This document shows, in pieces, positions 34,049 to 41,221 of a DNA stretch of 41,980 nucleotides. This DNA is from a virus. The notes under the pieces are model-generated. The model was not told the DNA's origin, searched no databases, and saw only the letters and a list, made by a program, of their open reading frames with translations. Where the stretch lies: positions 1 to 41,980 of the IMG/VR virus record IMGVR_UViG_3300027969_000181; one strand, written 5' to 3'. Both the position numbers and the translations under genes were made by a program. How positions within the stretch are numbered: position 1 is the first letter of the stretch; each line of letters begins with the position of its first letter.

Positions 34049-35191
34049 ATGAGTGATACATTCGTGCAGGACTTCGAGTCCAAATTGTTTGAGTTGTTCC
34101 CAGACGCTAAGACAAATGGCGTAGTGAAGAATTCAGAATTGCTTGATACAATGCGTGCCATGGGTACGACCAAGCAACCTAAGTGGCTGATGGTGAACAA
34201 GGTAGGTCGTGGCTTGTATGCCATCGATGGCTCCAAAGCACCAGTGGCTGGTAACCTAGCATTAAAACCAGAAGAGTCTTTCATTGTGGATTACACTGAC
34301 CTAACTTCCCTGATCCCTAAGAAGGATTCTAACTTTGTGCCCTTTGGCAACTTCACTGATCTTGAGAACATTATCAAGTCAGGTATTTTCTACCCAGCCT
34401 ACATCAGTGGTCCGACTGGGAACGGCAAGTCCACGATGGTGGAACAGATTTGTGCCAAACACAAACGTCCTCTGATCCGTATTAACTTGAACATGATGAC
34501 CGATGAGGAACAACTCATTGGCTCGAAAACCCTAGAAGATGGTAACGTAGAGATTGTAGAAGGTCCAGTCCTGATCGCAATGCGCAATGGTACTACCCTT
34601 TTGCTTGACGAGATTGACGCTGGCTCAGCAAATACTTTGCTCTGCTTGCAACCGATCCTCGAGGGTAAACCTTATTACTTCAAACTCAAGAATGAGATGA
34701 TCGTTCCTGCAGCTGGATTCAATGTTCTTGCAACTGCGAATACCAAAGGTAAGGGTAGTGACGATGGTCGTTACATCGGTACCAACGTACTGAACGAAGC
34801 ATTCTTGGAGCGATTCGCTGTTACTTTCGAACAGGAATATCCTAATGCGAAAGTAGAAGTTAAGATTATCAAGAATCTCATGGAAACTTATTCGTGTGTT
34901 GACGAAGAGTTTGCAGAGAATCTCGTTAAGTGGGCTGAAGCAATTCGTCGCACTTTCGAGGATGGTGGCGTAGATGAAACCATTACGACTCGTCGTATGA
35001 TTCACATCGTACGTGCCTTTGCAATCTTTAAAGATCGCAAGAAAGCAGTCGAGTTGTGTTGCAATCGTTTTGATTCTGCAACGAAGGTAGCATTCCAGGA
35101 CTTGTTCGAGAAGGTATGTAATCCCGAGCCAGAAGTGGTAGCACCTGAAGTTGCAAAGACTCCCGATGCAAACGCAGAAGTACCATTTTAA
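34049..35191 (+). CDS. cobS: CobS/MoxR-like AAA+ ATPase
   Basis: Starting at ATG 34049 (380 residues, GGAG at 34039-34042), the protein has an N-terminal small domain ending 'PKWLMVNKVGRGLYAIDG'. The AAA+ core has Walker A 'GPTGNGKS' (121-128), Walker B 'LLLDEID' (D187, E188), a 'ATANTKGKG' sensor 1, and 'LNEAFLERF'. It resembles CobS, which is widespread in T4-like cyanophages and named after the cobaltochelatase subunit. MoxR/CobS ATPases act with VWA proteins, and the gene at 31422 is the obvious candidate. The real substrate in phages is unknown; the cobS name indicates homology only. Confidence 0.82.
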   Translation: MSDTFVQDFESKLFELFPDAKTNGVVKNSELLDTMRAMGTTKQPKWLMVNKVGRGLYAIDGSKAPVAGNLALKPEESFIVDYTDLTSLIPKKDSNFVPFGNFTDLENIIKSGIFYPAYISGPTGNGKSTMVEQICAKHKRPLIRINLNMMTDEEQLIGSKTLEDGNVEIVEGPVLIAMRNGTTLLLDEIDAGSANTLLCLQPILEGKPYYFKLKNEMIVPAAGFNVLATANTKGKGSDDGRYIGTNVLNEAFLERFAVTFEQEYPNAKVEVKIIKNLMETYSCVDEEFAENLVKWAEAIRRTFEDGGVDETITTRRMIHIVRAFAIFKDRKKAVELCCNRFDSATKVAFQDLFEKVCNPEPEVVAPEVAKTPDANAEVPF

Positions 35192-35193
35192 AC

Positions 35194-35222
35194 TTGACTT
35201 TTATTGAAACTTGTAGTATAAT
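35194..35222 (+). promoter_or_regulatory. Sigma70-like promoter for 35253
   Basis: TTGACT (35194-35199), 17-nt spacer, TATAAT (35217-35222). It begins directly after the CobS-like stop. Confidence 0.87.
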
Positions 35223-35252
35223 TATATTTGAAACTTGAAAAGGAACTTGATT

Positions 35253-35717
35253 ATGTTGAAATTTGCTAGCCTATCCCTGTCACAGAAGAAGTGTGTTATT
35301 GCTTTGATTGAAGCAAATCCTTCTTTGAAGAAAGATGGTAAGATCTCTTTGAAAGAAGTGGTCGCCATTACCCAAGATCTCGCATCTAAGCGAGCATCTG
35401 GTGCTCCGAAAATCGGTTACCCAAACTGGTTGTTCAAGAGCAATAAAGTAGAACGTGGTTTGTATCAACTGCCACTACCTACTGAGAAAGAGTTGAGCGA
35501 TTATACCCAATCATCAACTAAACCTACTGCTGTGAAGCAGAAGGTCGCTAAGGTTAAGACTGCAAAGGTTAAGACCACAGCGAAGACTACTCAAGATAAA
35601 GCAGATACTGCTCTTGAGAAGTCACGTCTTCAGTCAATCATTGACGACTCTGTCGCTCATGATGAAGATGTTGAAGACTTCAATGCTATCCTCCGTGAGA
35701 ATGGTATCGAAGTTTAA
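35253..35717 (+). CDS. Protein sharing the N-terminal domain of the CobS-like ATPase
   Basis: ATG 35253 (154 residues) follows AAAAGGAA; an in-frame TTG at 35235 is less likely. The N-terminal part ends 'GYPNWLFKSNKVERGLYQLP', closely resembling 'PKWLMVNKVGRGLYAIDG' in the CobS-like protein. A Lys/Thr-rich flexible linker ('KVAKVKTAKVKTTAKTT') and a short acidic helix follow. It may compete for or share a binding partner of the CobS-like ATPase, for example as an adaptor; this is inference. A strong terminator follows. Confidence 0.65.
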   Translation: MLKFASLSLSQKKCVIALIEANPSLKKDGKISLKEVVAITQDLASKRASGAPKIGYPNWLFKSNKVERGLYQLPLPTEKELSDYTQSSTKPTAVKQKVAKVKTAKVKTTAKTTQDKADTALEKSRLQSIIDDSVAHDEDVEDFNAILRENGIEV

Positions 35718-35734
35718 TTTGTTATTTCCGTTAG

Positions 35735-38692: not shown

Positions 38693-39066
38693 GTCCATTC
38701 GATTTTTTAAATGCAATAAATGATAACAAGAAGGATCTGTTTGAAGATCCCCAAGCAGAGAAAGACTATTCTGCTTTTATGGTAAATAGAGGTCTGTCAT
38801 ATTTTCCTGACACCATCCTTTATGCTAACGAGATGAATCGTTTCCCAGCGATTCCTAAGTCTTGGCAATTTTACTTTTTCCTAAATACTATACCAAAGAA
38901 GAAAAGGTTTAGTAAATGGGCTAAGAAAGATGCCGAGACTAAATCTCTTCAACTCATTAAGGAATACTATGGCTATTCCTTTGAGAAGGCGAAAGAGGCA
39001 TTGAGCGTCCTTTCGGTTGAGCAGTTGAGCATAATTGAAGAAAAATTACAAAAAGGTGGAAAATAA
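38689..39066 (+). CDS. 62: Clamp loader small subunit gp62, short form
   Basis: The 125-residue protein (T4: 187) matches the gp62 core: 'AEKDYSaFMVNrgLSyFPDtIlyANEMNrfpaIPKsWQfyFfLntIPKKKRFSKWAKK'. It completes the clamp loader with gp44. The N-terminal region present in T4 is missing here, a reduced form also seen in other marine T4-like phages. It overlaps its neighbours on both sides (ATGA and TAATG), so it is translated with RegA. Confidence 0.88.
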   Translation: MSPFDFLNAINDNKKDLFEDPQAEKDYSAFMVNRGLSYFPDTILYANEMNRFPAIPKSWQFYFFLNTIPKKKRFSKWAKKDAETKSLQLIKEYYGYSFEKAKEALSVLSVEQLSIIEEKLQKGGK

Positions 39067-39491
39067 TGACTGTTGAAATGATATACTACGACTGGACGCC
39101 AGAGTCCATGCTTGAAGTGACTTTGCCAGAACCAGATAACTTTCTCAAGGTTCGCGAGACACTTACTCGCATCGGAATCGCTTCCAGAAAAGAAAACAAA
39201 CTATACCAGTCTTGTCACATATTGCACAAGCAGGGTAGGTATTTCATCGTACATTTTAAAGAACTCTTTGCCTTGGATGGCAAGGAATCGAATATCACGT
39301 CTGGTGATATTGAACGTAGGAATGCAATTGCGGCATTGCTTCAGGATTGGGAACTATTAAATATTATAGCCTCAGCCAAAGCAGAGCCAAAAGCATCTCT
39401 CTCTCAGATTAAGGTTGTATCTTATAAAGAGAAAGAGCAATGGGAACTTGTTCCTAAATATAACATCGGTAAGAAAATTACTACTAAATAA
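39066..39491 (+). CDS. regA: Translational repressor RegA
   Basis: The 141-residue protein (T4: 122) contains 'EPDNFLKVRETLTRIGIASr' then 'KLYQSCHILHKQGRYFIVHFKELF', 'RRNAIAALLQDWELLnII' and 'YKEKEQWELVPKYNIGKK', near-identical to T4 RegA. It binds early messages around start codons and blocks translation. An extra N-terminal segment of about 15 residues precedes the T4 start position. In T4 and cyanophages gp43 (DNA polymerase) usually follows; here an accessory island does. Confidence 0.95.
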   Translation: MTVEMIYYDWTPESMLEVTLPEPDNFLKVRETLTRIGIASRKENKLYQSCHILHKQGRYFIVHFKELFALDGKESNITSGDIERRNAIAALLQDWELLNIIASAKAEPKASLSQIKVVSYKEKEQWELVPKYNIGKKITTK

Positions 39492-39510: not shown

Positions 39511-39687
39511 ATGATCAAACTTGACTTGACAGTAAACGAAATTAACACTATTCTGCGCTCATTAAGCAAGCATCCTTTCGAGGAAATTGCAAACTTAATC
39601 GGTAAGATTAAAACTCAAGGTGACCCACAAGTCGCTGAGATTGAAAAACAGTTGGCTGAGTCTAAAGCAGAACAACCAGCTGAATAA
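39511..39687 (+). CDS. Small conserved-type protein after regA
   Basis: This 58-residue gene starts at ATG 39511 with AGAGGA 5 bases upstream and ends in a stop that overlaps a late box. The product 'KLDLTVNEINTILRSLSKHP', then 'FEEIANLIGKIKTQGDPQVA', is a two-helix protein with a Glu/Ala-rich tail, of a type I associate with many T4-like phages. Function unknown. Confidence 0.7.
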   Translation: MIKLDLTVNEINTILRSLSKHPFEEIANLIGKIKTQGDPQVAEIEKQLAESKAEQPAE

Positions 39688-39690
39688 ATA
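39683..39690 (+). promoter_or_regulatory. Late-promoter box upstream of pqqA
   Basis: Perfect AATAAATA. The predicted start is near 39696, giving a leader of about 98 nt before the pqqA ATG. It would place PqqA production in the late phase. Confidence 0.6.
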
Positions 39691-39695
39691 AAAGG

Positions 39696-39793
39696 TATTC
39701 ATTAGATACAAATAATGATTTTCATTAGGGACTTATCGCCCATCGTGGGATAAGTAGTAGTGTCCAATAAGGACATTAACTAAGGAGATGATT
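39696..39793 (+). ncRNA. Structured leader of pqqA
   Basis: CTTAT (39732-39736) and CCCA (39739-39742) pair with TGGG (39746-39749) and ATAAG (39750-39754). TGTCC (39761-39765) pairs with GGACA (39771-39775) just before AAGGAG. Alternatively GGAC (39729-39732) can pair with GTCC (39762-39765). TTCATTAG is repeated at 39698 and 39721. A cis-regulatory role is possible; no known riboswitch family is recognised. Confidence 0.4.
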
Positions 39794-39865
39794 ATGTGGA
39801 CTAAACCAGAAGCAATAGAAATGCGTTATGGATTCGAAGTTACAATGTACGTAATGAATCGATAA
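39794..39865 (+). CDS. pqqA: PqqA, PQQ precursor peptide
   Basis: This 23-codon gene begins at ATG 39794, with AAGGAG 6 bases upstream. The peptide starts 'MWTKPEAIEMRYGFE' and continues VTMYVMNR. Family hallmarks are the 'MWtKP' start, 'GFEVTMY' core with Glu15 and Tyr19 in the E-x3-Y spacing, and the basic end. In host PqqA, these Glu and Tyr side chains are joined by PqqE (with PqqD) and trimmed to pyrroloquinoline quinone, the cofactor of methanol and other dehydrogenases. No pqqBCDE genes are in the window, so host enzymes would be needed. It is flanked by late boxes and structured RNA, between regA and hsp20. Confidence 0.93.
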   Translation: MWTKPEAIEMRYGFEVTMYVMNR

Positions 39866-39868
39866 ATA
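39861..39868 (+). promoter_or_regulatory. Late-promoter box overlapping the pqqA stop
   Basis: Perfect GATAAATA. The predicted +1 is near 39874, one base before the first stem of the structured RNA. It would drive that RNA and hsp20. Confidence 0.65.
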
Positions 39869-39873
39869 GTATT

Positions 39874-40036
39874 ATCCCAGGGATGGGAAGATAGGTTGGT
39901 AACCTATTCAATCACTACCAAGAATTCACCTTAGGACCGCTAAGTTACGAATCGTGGTAAAGCTGACAGTACGTTAAGCTGTCGCTGGAACTAGTAACCA
40001 GCAACCCTCTACGCCCATTTGGGGTAGAGTTATTTT
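39874..40036 (+). ncRNA. Candidate structured RNA between pqqA and hsp20
   Basis: At least five stems occur in about 160 nt. TCCCA/TGGGA (39875-39888) has a GGGA (GNRA-type) loop. ATAGGTT/AACCTAT (39891-39907) has a 3-nt loop. A compound stem is TACCA+ATTC with GAAT+TGGTA (39916-39959), enclosing CTTAG/CTAAG (39930-39944). GACAG/CTGTC (39965-39983) competes partly with GCTGG/CCAGC (39984-40002). A last hairpin CTCTAC/GTAGAG (40007-40029) precedes TTATTTT like a weak terminator. No protein frame fits. It may be an independent small RNA or the leader of hsp20; no known family is recognised. Confidence 0.5.
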
Positions 40037-40061
40037 AAAACTCGCTTAATAGGAGAAAACT

Positions 40062-40571
40062 ATGGGAAACAATATCCCTTTGCTATTTGGTCCAGGCTTT
40101 AAGGACTTCGACAAATTCTTTGTCGGTTTCGAAGACACTGCAAAACAACTACAAACTTTGCACGCTGATCTGACGAAAAACATTCCAAACTATCCACCAT
40201 ACAACATTCGTAAGAATGATGAGAACTCATACACAATCGAATTGGCAGTTGCTGGTTTCGGTGAGTCTGAGATCGACATCACTATCGATGGTGGTAAGTT
40301 AATTGTTAAAGGTAATGTTGACGCAACTACTGATGCACCAGAAGAAAACTTCTTGTTCAAAGGTATCGCTACACGTGCCTTCACTCGTGCCTTTGCTATC
40401 GATGATCACATCGAAGTTAAGAACGCAGAACTATTCAATGGTATGCTTAAGATCGCTTTGGAGCGTTTAGTTCCAGAAGAAGCAAAGCCAAAGAAAGTTC
40501 CAGTGAAGACTTCCAAGGGTAAACAATTCCTATCGGAGAGCGATTATGACAAAGCTGCTGAACAACTTTAA
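40062..40571 (+). CDS. hsp20: Hsp20-family small heat-shock protein
   Basis: The 169-residue chaperone contains an alpha-crystallin domain: 'YPPYNIRKNDENSYTIELAV' with 'AVAGFGESEIDITIDGGKLIVKG' overlapping, 'FLFKGIATRAFTRAFAIDDH' and 'NAELFNGMLKIALERLVPEE'. The C-terminus is Lys-rich. Phage Hsp20 proteins are common in marine T4-like phages and probably hold virion or scaffold proteins soluble. AGGAG precedes the ATG. The long structured leader may control it. The 3' end overlaps a 31-residue frame. Confidence 0.93.
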   Translation: MGNNIPLLFGPGFKDFDKFFVGFEDTAKQLQTLHADLTKNIPNYPPYNIRKNDENSYTIELAVAGFGESEIDITIDGGKLIVKGNVDATTDAPEENFLFKGIATRAFTRAFAIDDHIEVKNAELFNGMLKIALERLVPEEAKPKKVPVKTSKGKQFLSESDYDKAAEQL

Positions 40572-40641
40572 GAATATCGTTCTTGGTATCTCTGAAGGTA
40601 TCCAGATGTTCAAAGCCTATAAAGTAGGTAAGGTAAAATGA
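40546..40641 (+). CDS. 31-residue peptide overlapping hsp20 and rubrerythrin
   Basis: ATG 40546 lies inside the hsp20 end with GGAG 8 bases upstream, and its stop overlaps the rubrerythrin ATG (ATGA). The peptide 'MTKLLNNFKNIVLGISEGIQ', followed by a basic end, forms an amphipathic helix with Lys at both ends. The tight double coupling supports translation. Possible membrane-interacting peptide or simply a coupler; function unknown. Confidence 0.55.
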   Translation: MTKLLNNFKNIVLGISEGIQMFKAYKVGKVK

Positions 40642-41093
40642 GCACTTCTGTAACATTAAAGAATCTTGAGAGTGCGTTGGCTGGTGAGTCAATGGCACAT
40701 ATTAAGTATCGCTACTTTGCAAAGATTGCTCGTGAAGAAGGTTTCGAAGATGTTGCAAAACACTTTGAACATACCGCTGATCAAGAAATCAAACATGCAT
40801 GGAGTCATCTTGAATTGTTAATCGGTAAGCCATCCACTAAGGAATGTTTACAGAAAGCAATTGATGGAGAGACTTATGAGTATACAGAAATGTATCCACA
40901 GTTTGAAGCAATTGCAGTTTCAGAAGGAAATCTACATGCAGAAAAAGAAATGCGTGGACAGATTCAAGAATCTTTTGAACATGCAGAAGCATTCAAAGCT
41001 GTGTTGGCAAAAGCAGAAAAGCGTTTTAATGCTTTGAAGAAAGTGGAAGAGCGTCATGCTAATGCTTACAAACAAGTCTTGGGAGGTTTATAA
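40638..41093 (+). CDS. Rubrerythrin-type diiron protein (no rubredoxin domain)
   Basis: The 151-residue protein has a ferritin-like four-helix bundle with candidate diiron ligands E17 ('LAGES'), E50 and H53 ('QEIKHAW'), E81 and E84 ('EYTEMYP'), and E137 and H140 ('VEERHANAY'). Classical rubrerythrins carry a C-terminal rubredoxin domain; here it is missing and a free rubredoxin is encoded next. The pair would reduce hydrogen peroxide or store iron. Start overlaps the preceding peptide (ATGA), stop overlaps the rubredoxin start (TAATG). Confidence 0.88.
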   Translation: MSTSVTLKNLESALAGESMAHIKYRYFAKIAREEGFEDVAKHFEHTADQEIKHAWSHLELLIGKPSTKECLQKAIDGETYEYTEMYPQFEAIAVSEGNLHAEKEMRGQIQESFEHAEAFKAVLAKAEKRFNALKKVEERHANAYKQVLGGL

Positions 41094-41221
41094 TGGAACA
41101 TGTATGCGTAGTCTGTGGTCACGTCCATGATGAAGCAACCGAAGGTAAGTGGGATGAACTTCCTGCTGACTTTGAATGCCCAGAGTGTGGTGTTGGCAAA
41201 GATGAATACGAAATGATCTAA
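41093..41221 (+). CDS. Rubredoxin
   Basis: This 42-residue gene begins at the overlapping TAATG with GGGAGG upstream. The product has 'VCVVCGHVHDEATEGKWDEL' followed by 'PADFECPECGVGKDEYE', the full rubredoxin pattern with iron ligands C5, C8, C29 and C32 and a shortened loop. It would pass electrons to the rubrerythrin encoded just upstream. Electron source is unknown, presumably a host reductase. A UUCG hairpin follows. Confidence 0.9.
   Translation: MEHVCVVCGHVHDEATEGKWDELPADFECPECGVGKDEYEMI

Follow-up and report, generated by a model that had tools for sequence, protein, structure and literature searches.

The pqqA locus in the window

The window (the whole stretch of DNA analysed, 41,980 bases, taken from an IMG/VR virus record) contains T4-like genes for terminase (TerL), portal (phrog_213), major head protein (phrog_138), tail sheath, helicase, clamp, clamp loader, RegA and Hsp20. 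Between regA and hsp20 it carries a small reading frame whose product, MWTKPEAIEMRYGFEVTMYVMNR, scored 35.1 bits against Pfam PF08042 (cut-off 21.1) and 35.4 bits against NCBIfam TIGR02107 (cut-off 20), and no PF08042 match was found in 14 control genomes. Glu15 and Tyr19 of the peptide show the E-x3-Y spacing; the Glu and Tyr of this motif in PqqA are the residues that become PQQ. The sequence-only reading had called the phage T4-like, the product PqqA and the ribosome site good, and had given the coordinates of the gene exactly; all of this holds. Its placement of the gene between regA and hsp20 is right as to position, but regA is not the immediate neighbour, since a 58-aa open reading frame (orf58) intervenes. 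A host-homologous metabolic gene thus lies inside a true phage genome, as the hallmark genes indicate, and complete isolate genomes carry pqqA too.

Table 1. Features at and around pqqA in the window
Feature	Position	Strand	Basis or remark
regA, translational repressor, upstream neighbour	39066-39491	+	phrog_242, 3e-60
orf58, 58 aa, between regA and pqqA	39511-39687		
Late-promoter-like (T4-like) AATAAATA	39683-39690	+	suggestive only
Extra half-site TCATTAG	39700-39706	+	22 bp (about two helical turns) 5' of the operator's identical half-site; read directly
Host-type PQQ-regulon operator TAATGATTTTCATTAG	39713-39728	+	20.6 bits, matrix from host promoters only
Putative -10 GATAAG	39749-39754	+	20 nt 3' of operator
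Short leader hairpin GTCC-loop-GGAC	39762-39774	+	read directly; function putative
Shine-Dalgarno AAGGAG	39782-39787	+	6 nt 5' of the pqqA ATG; read directly
pqqA, 23-aa PQQ precursor peptide	39794-39865	+	23 codons, ATG at 39794, TAA ending at 39865; PF08042 and TIGR02107 above cut-offs
Further GATAAATA, overlapping the pqqA stop	39861-39868	+	suggestive only
Structured element ATTCACCTTAGGACC..CTAAG..GCTGG..CCAGC..GCTTAATAGGAG	39922-40050		conserved, before hsp20
hsp20, downstream neighbour	40062-40571	+	phrog_432, 7e-39
Rubrerythrin-like and rubredoxin-like genes	40638-41221		after hsp20

An alternative in-frame ATG at 39788, which abuts the AAGGAG, is unlikely to be the pqqA start. The putative -10 has a counterpart, TATAAG, with equal spacing in the relative L261 and in phage Melnitz, and the GTCC/GGAC leader hairpin is kept in L251, L260, L261 and L095. 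The fold z-score of the leader (-3.4) suggested a riboswitch-like element; this candidate was rejected, as the strongest conserved element is instead a DNA palindrome shared with hosts, and no Rfam family matched in the window. The late expression proposed earlier fared no better: the best-supported promoter signal is the host PQQ-regulon operator with a -10-like element, and the NATAAATA at 39683 is suggestive only. This motif occurs nine times on the plus strand and never on the minus strand of the window (6.9 and 4.9 expected), a count no higher than expected and hence no proof of late expression.

For comparison, we assembled 50 T4-like records, the window included, picked from relatives of the window clamp loader, and found pqqA in 10 of them. 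The gene sits in the interval from regA/orf58 to hsp20 in the window, L251, L261, L123, L259 and L288, all of the close clade; the L260 record stops short of hsp20. Because the close relatives L252, L254, L255, L264 and L309 keep hsp20 and regA and have no pqqA, the gene is dispensable or host-dependent. Downstream of pqqA, the structured element of Table 1 shows compensatory changes at four pairs and occurs in relatives both with and without pqqA; it is possibly an hsp20 leader RNA and has no relation to pqqA. No DNA match to it was found in the phage collection. The rubrerythrin-like and rubredoxin-like genes likewise follow hsp20 in L254 and L268.

A host-type operator upstream of pqqA

The operator of the window is an exact match to TMATGAWWWTMMKTAG and the only site there of at least 12 bits, the next best reaching 10.6. 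A phage-wide middle-promoter box was considered and discarded, since the operator is present once in 42 kb. At the position of the extra half-site, L260, L261 and L095 have CATTAG and L251 has a diverged CGTTAG; host promoters often have an additional TMATGA at a 23-bp offset. When EM motif discovery was run separately on 111 host and 105 phage pqqA upstream regions, one palindrome emerged, in the form TMATGAWWWTMMKTAG in hosts and TMATGATTTTC.TTA in phages, with log-likelihoods of 752 against 44 and 490 against 51 for shuffles of the two sets. Two-fold hold-out recovered the operator in 78% of host and 68% of phage promoters, compared with 0.5% and 1.5% of block-shuffled ones, the phage records being partly related even with near-identical promoters removed.

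The matrix trained on host promoters also singled out phage pqqA. At 12 bits or more it found 53 sites in the 20 kb upstream of phage pqqA genes and 38 in the remaining 1.1 Mb, a 76-fold difference in density, and at 18 bits it found 10 and 0, respectively. The top-ranked site lies 64 to 109 bp before pqqA in the window, Melnitz, Venkman, MEP301 and Manatee Spring virus; that of Melnitz scored 20.7 bits, with the next at 13.6. The evidence is weaker in P19250A, where the site ranks third, and in MEP402, where the best site is 240 bp off, and about one-third of phage pqqA promoters have no recognisable operator. In three T4-like records (L123, L259 and L319), a common element, CAAGGTAGAC..CTCTACTGA, stands upstream of pqqA in the operator's stead. 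Measured with a simple consensus as the -10 model, the distance from operator to -10-like hexamer is 44 to 47 nt in most hosts and mainly 21 to 23 or 43 to 46 nt in phages. The two phage spacing classes lie about two helical turns apart, a pattern to be expected of an activator site.

In ten Methylophilaceae genomes, most operator sites lie 5' of pqqA. Another precedes pqqBC in Methylophilus methylotrophus. Both Methylophilus and Methylotenera also have the operator before a gene for a TonB receptor. This receptor scores best with the PqqU model and has the PQQ transporter 9c4o among its relatives of solved structure; we call it PqqU-like only, because these truncated proteins reach about 465 to 484 bits and miss the model cut-off of 1200. 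The same operator precedes a gene for a glycine-zipper outer-membrane-like protein in three genomes (among L372, L374, L375 and L377) and one for a secreted-looking catalase-peroxidase in one Methylotenera genome. It seems from these gene positions that the operator marks a host PQQ regulon. In the open-access literature, we found no known operator for Methylophilaceae pqq genes.

Spread of pqqA among phages and hosts

A tblastn search with the window peptide against 50,697 phage records matched 12, and this and the other phage counts are lower bounds, the isolates MEP431 to MEP434 being listed in the taxonomy and lying outside the matched set. Nine matches are cultured phages of Methylophilales or Methylophilaceae (MEP401, MEP402, MEP301, Venkman, P19250A and four Melnitz strains); the other three are one Manatee Spring virus and two Acinetobacter-labelled contigs. 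One of the latter (L008, CAKLQF020000010.1, "Acinetobacter phage MD-2021a") holds a bacterial pqqABCDE operon and polyphosphate kinase; we therefore rejected it as a phage pqqA, and it looks like a mislabelled bacterial contig. Among IMG/VR records, at least 120 have the GFEVTMY coding pattern, and in 120 of 120 it belongs to a complete PqqA reading frame with its own start and stop. Because ten phage records encode peptides 74 to 83% identical to that of the window and all 120 frames are complete, the window PqqA is not a chance resemblance.

As the sequence-only reading had supposed, gene finders miss the gene: in cultured methylotroph phages pqqA is without annotation, and in Melnitz and Manatee Spring virus an opposite-strand frame is called over it (the hypothetical proteins UOF77531.1 and QZI94879.1; L003 2067-2195 and L007 4961-5056). 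Cultured methylotroph phages of the myo-, sipho- and podovirus types have pqqA, at differing genome positions. It adjoins tRNA-Leu and gp5 in Melnitz, opens a gene block in MEP401 and MEP402, and in siphoviruses lies amid small genes by the recombination module or elsewhere. At 94 IMG/VR loci, the largest neighbouring frames match several mutually unrelated phage families for portal, adaptor, helicase, polymerase and terminase proteins. Seven viral contigs (L012, L021, L026, L032, L033, L036 and L124) encode PqqA variants unlike the Methylophilaceae type, likely pointing to other PQQ-using hosts; those scored have no clear operator.

In phages, pqqA travels almost alone. No PqqE was found in 50 pqqA-bearing phage records, complete isolates included, where one weak radical-SAM match stayed below the cut-off. 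A PQQ alcohol dehydrogenase (methanol dehydrogenase) occurs in 1 of the 50 (G065, the record of L051); it lies at 34049-35731 of this 72-kb virus record, which thus encodes both genes, as Baikal phages do.

A genome scan for EMRFGFEVTMY returned mainly Methylophilaceae, the host sequences being selected by this core pattern, and the commonest peptide, MWTTPAATEMRFGFEVTMYVMNK, is identical to that of many phage copies. PqqA was present in 149 of 150 Methylophilaceae genomes, at 1 to 12 copies, and PqqE exceeded its cut-off in 39 of 41, so that the proposed methylotrophic host with PQQ enzymes holds at the level of the family. The peptide search against host genomes suggested earlier thus led to the Methylophilaceae PqqA family but not to the EMRY variant of the window itself, which is at most 87% identical to any peptide in the 150 sampled genomes; the window's own host is a presumed one. 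In Methylophilaceae strains from Lake Washington, pqqA is amplified to 3 to 12 copies, the other pqq genes usually forming one set (PMC4109929), which fits limitation at the level of the substrate. These solitary host genes resemble the phage ones in peptide family, in their multiple stand-alone copies and in the operator. They differ in the 44- to 47-nt distance from operator to -10, which in one phage class is about two helical turns shorter (21 to 23 nt), and the EMRY variant was unseen among them.

Selection on the peptide and its probable role

With a pattern restricted to the N terminus, which left the core free, we obtained 118 distinct PqqA copies, every one of which has the G-F-E-[VI]-T-[ML]-Y core. 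Outside the core, dN/dS was about 0.18 in phages and 0.16 in hosts, at high synonymous divergence. These values show the phage PqqA family to be under purifying selection, and together with the conserved core they favour a convertible substrate rather than a decoy.

According to the above-described analysis, the window probably carries a functional pqqA derived from a Methylophilaceae host. Its product would be a genuine PqqA substrate, made under control of the host PQQ regulon, and would sustain PQQ during infection. After acquisition of the gene from such a host, the host PQQ-regulon activator and sigma-70 RNA polymerase would transcribe it, and host PqqDEBC would turn its peptide into PQQ by way of a Glu15-Tyr19 cross-link. 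Methanol dehydrogenase would then stay supplied with its cofactor, and energy and formaldehyde carbon would flow on as host messages decay. In the PQQ pathway, one PqqA peptide is consumed per PQQ and the enzymes are catalytic; therefore, a phage would need to bring the substrate gene only. This stoichiometry, and the fact that hosts multiply only pqqA, would account for a cargo of pqqA without other pqq genes. Since unrelated methylotroph phages carry the same gene, usually with a host-like promoter element, they appear to maintain PQQ supply.

The earlier suggestion of a decoy, in which phage PqqA ties up PqqD or PqqE and thereby reduces host PQQ, is consistent with the conservation of enzyme-binding residues along with the rest of the peptide, and PqqD could be saturated if the peptide were very abundant. 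However, a decoy need not remain convertible, and many phage peptides match host ones residue for residue; because both cross-linked residues, which are needed for conversion beyond binding, are conserved in 118 of 118 copies, we consider this role very improbable. Extra PQQ released from infected cells might alternatively bar the receptor PqqU to rival phages that rely on it, as PQQ blocks a PqqU-targeting phage in E. coli (PMC12124388). A predicted PqqU-like receptor under the same operator in Methylophilus and Methylotenera speaks for such superinfection exclusion, although few genomes stand behind this putative link. We are aware of no methylotroph phage with a demonstrated use of PqqU and think this explanation very doubtful.

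It is extremely unlikely that the operator rather than the peptide is selected, sequestering the host PQQ regulator: the window operator is strong and conserved, but purifying selection acts on the peptide itself, about one-third of copies have no clear operator, and the fixed spacing from operator to -10-like hexamer is the one expected of a promoter. Likewise, a non-functional passenger gained by recombination, although easily captured because host copies are numerous and scattered, is hardly credible for a gene that recurs in unrelated phages with intact frames in all 120 records and with a dN/dS that already disfavours it.

Returning to a convertible substrate under host control, part of it has a precedent. 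In Lake Baikal, the T4-like Methylophilaceae phage population VP_266 encodes methanol dehydrogenase and PqqA, for which support of methanol oxidation was proposed (Coutinho 2020, PMC7678222); the novelty of phage-encoded PqqA is thus lower than the sequence-only reading assumed. That case is alike in having PqqA as a proposed auxiliary metabolic gene of a T4-like methylotroph phage. It is unlike the window in being a single annotated example, from a population with methanol dehydrogenase as well, whereas the window has pqqA alone, with a host-type operator, and the same gene recurs in unrelated cultured and uncultured phages. A 2026 survey of viral contigs from reservoir sediment lists pqqA, pqqE and pqqD among phosphorus-cycling auxiliary metabolic genes (PMC13188868); it likewise concerns virus-borne pqq genes from metagenomes, and the part available to us describes no operator and draws no link to methylotrophy. 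The publications describing the cultured phages name PQQ solely as a supplement of the medium (Melnitz) or leave it unmentioned (MEP401/402, MEP301). Taken as a whole, the sequence-only reading stands for identity, phage type, missed annotation and host family, and gives way on late timing, decoy and novelty.

The new part appears to be the breadth across phages and the regulation by a host-type operator. With somewhat better than even confidence, we propose that a stand-alone pqqA is near-universal in methylotroph phages, convergently acquired and mostly overlooked, and that it was captured with an undescribed host PQQ-regulon operator, so that a substrate gene is plugged into host cofactor control and no enzymes are carried. 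On this evidence, the supply of PQQ precursor seems to be a bottleneck of such weight that unrelated phages within one guild bring along the same 23-codon gene, one which annotation pipelines overlook. A further implication is that the hosts have a PQQ-regulon operator that has so far gone undescribed. Because Methylophilaceae phages are widespread in lakes and coastal seas, methanol and carbon cycling would be touched, and OM43 strain H5P1 with Melnitz and Venkman offers a clear experimental system.
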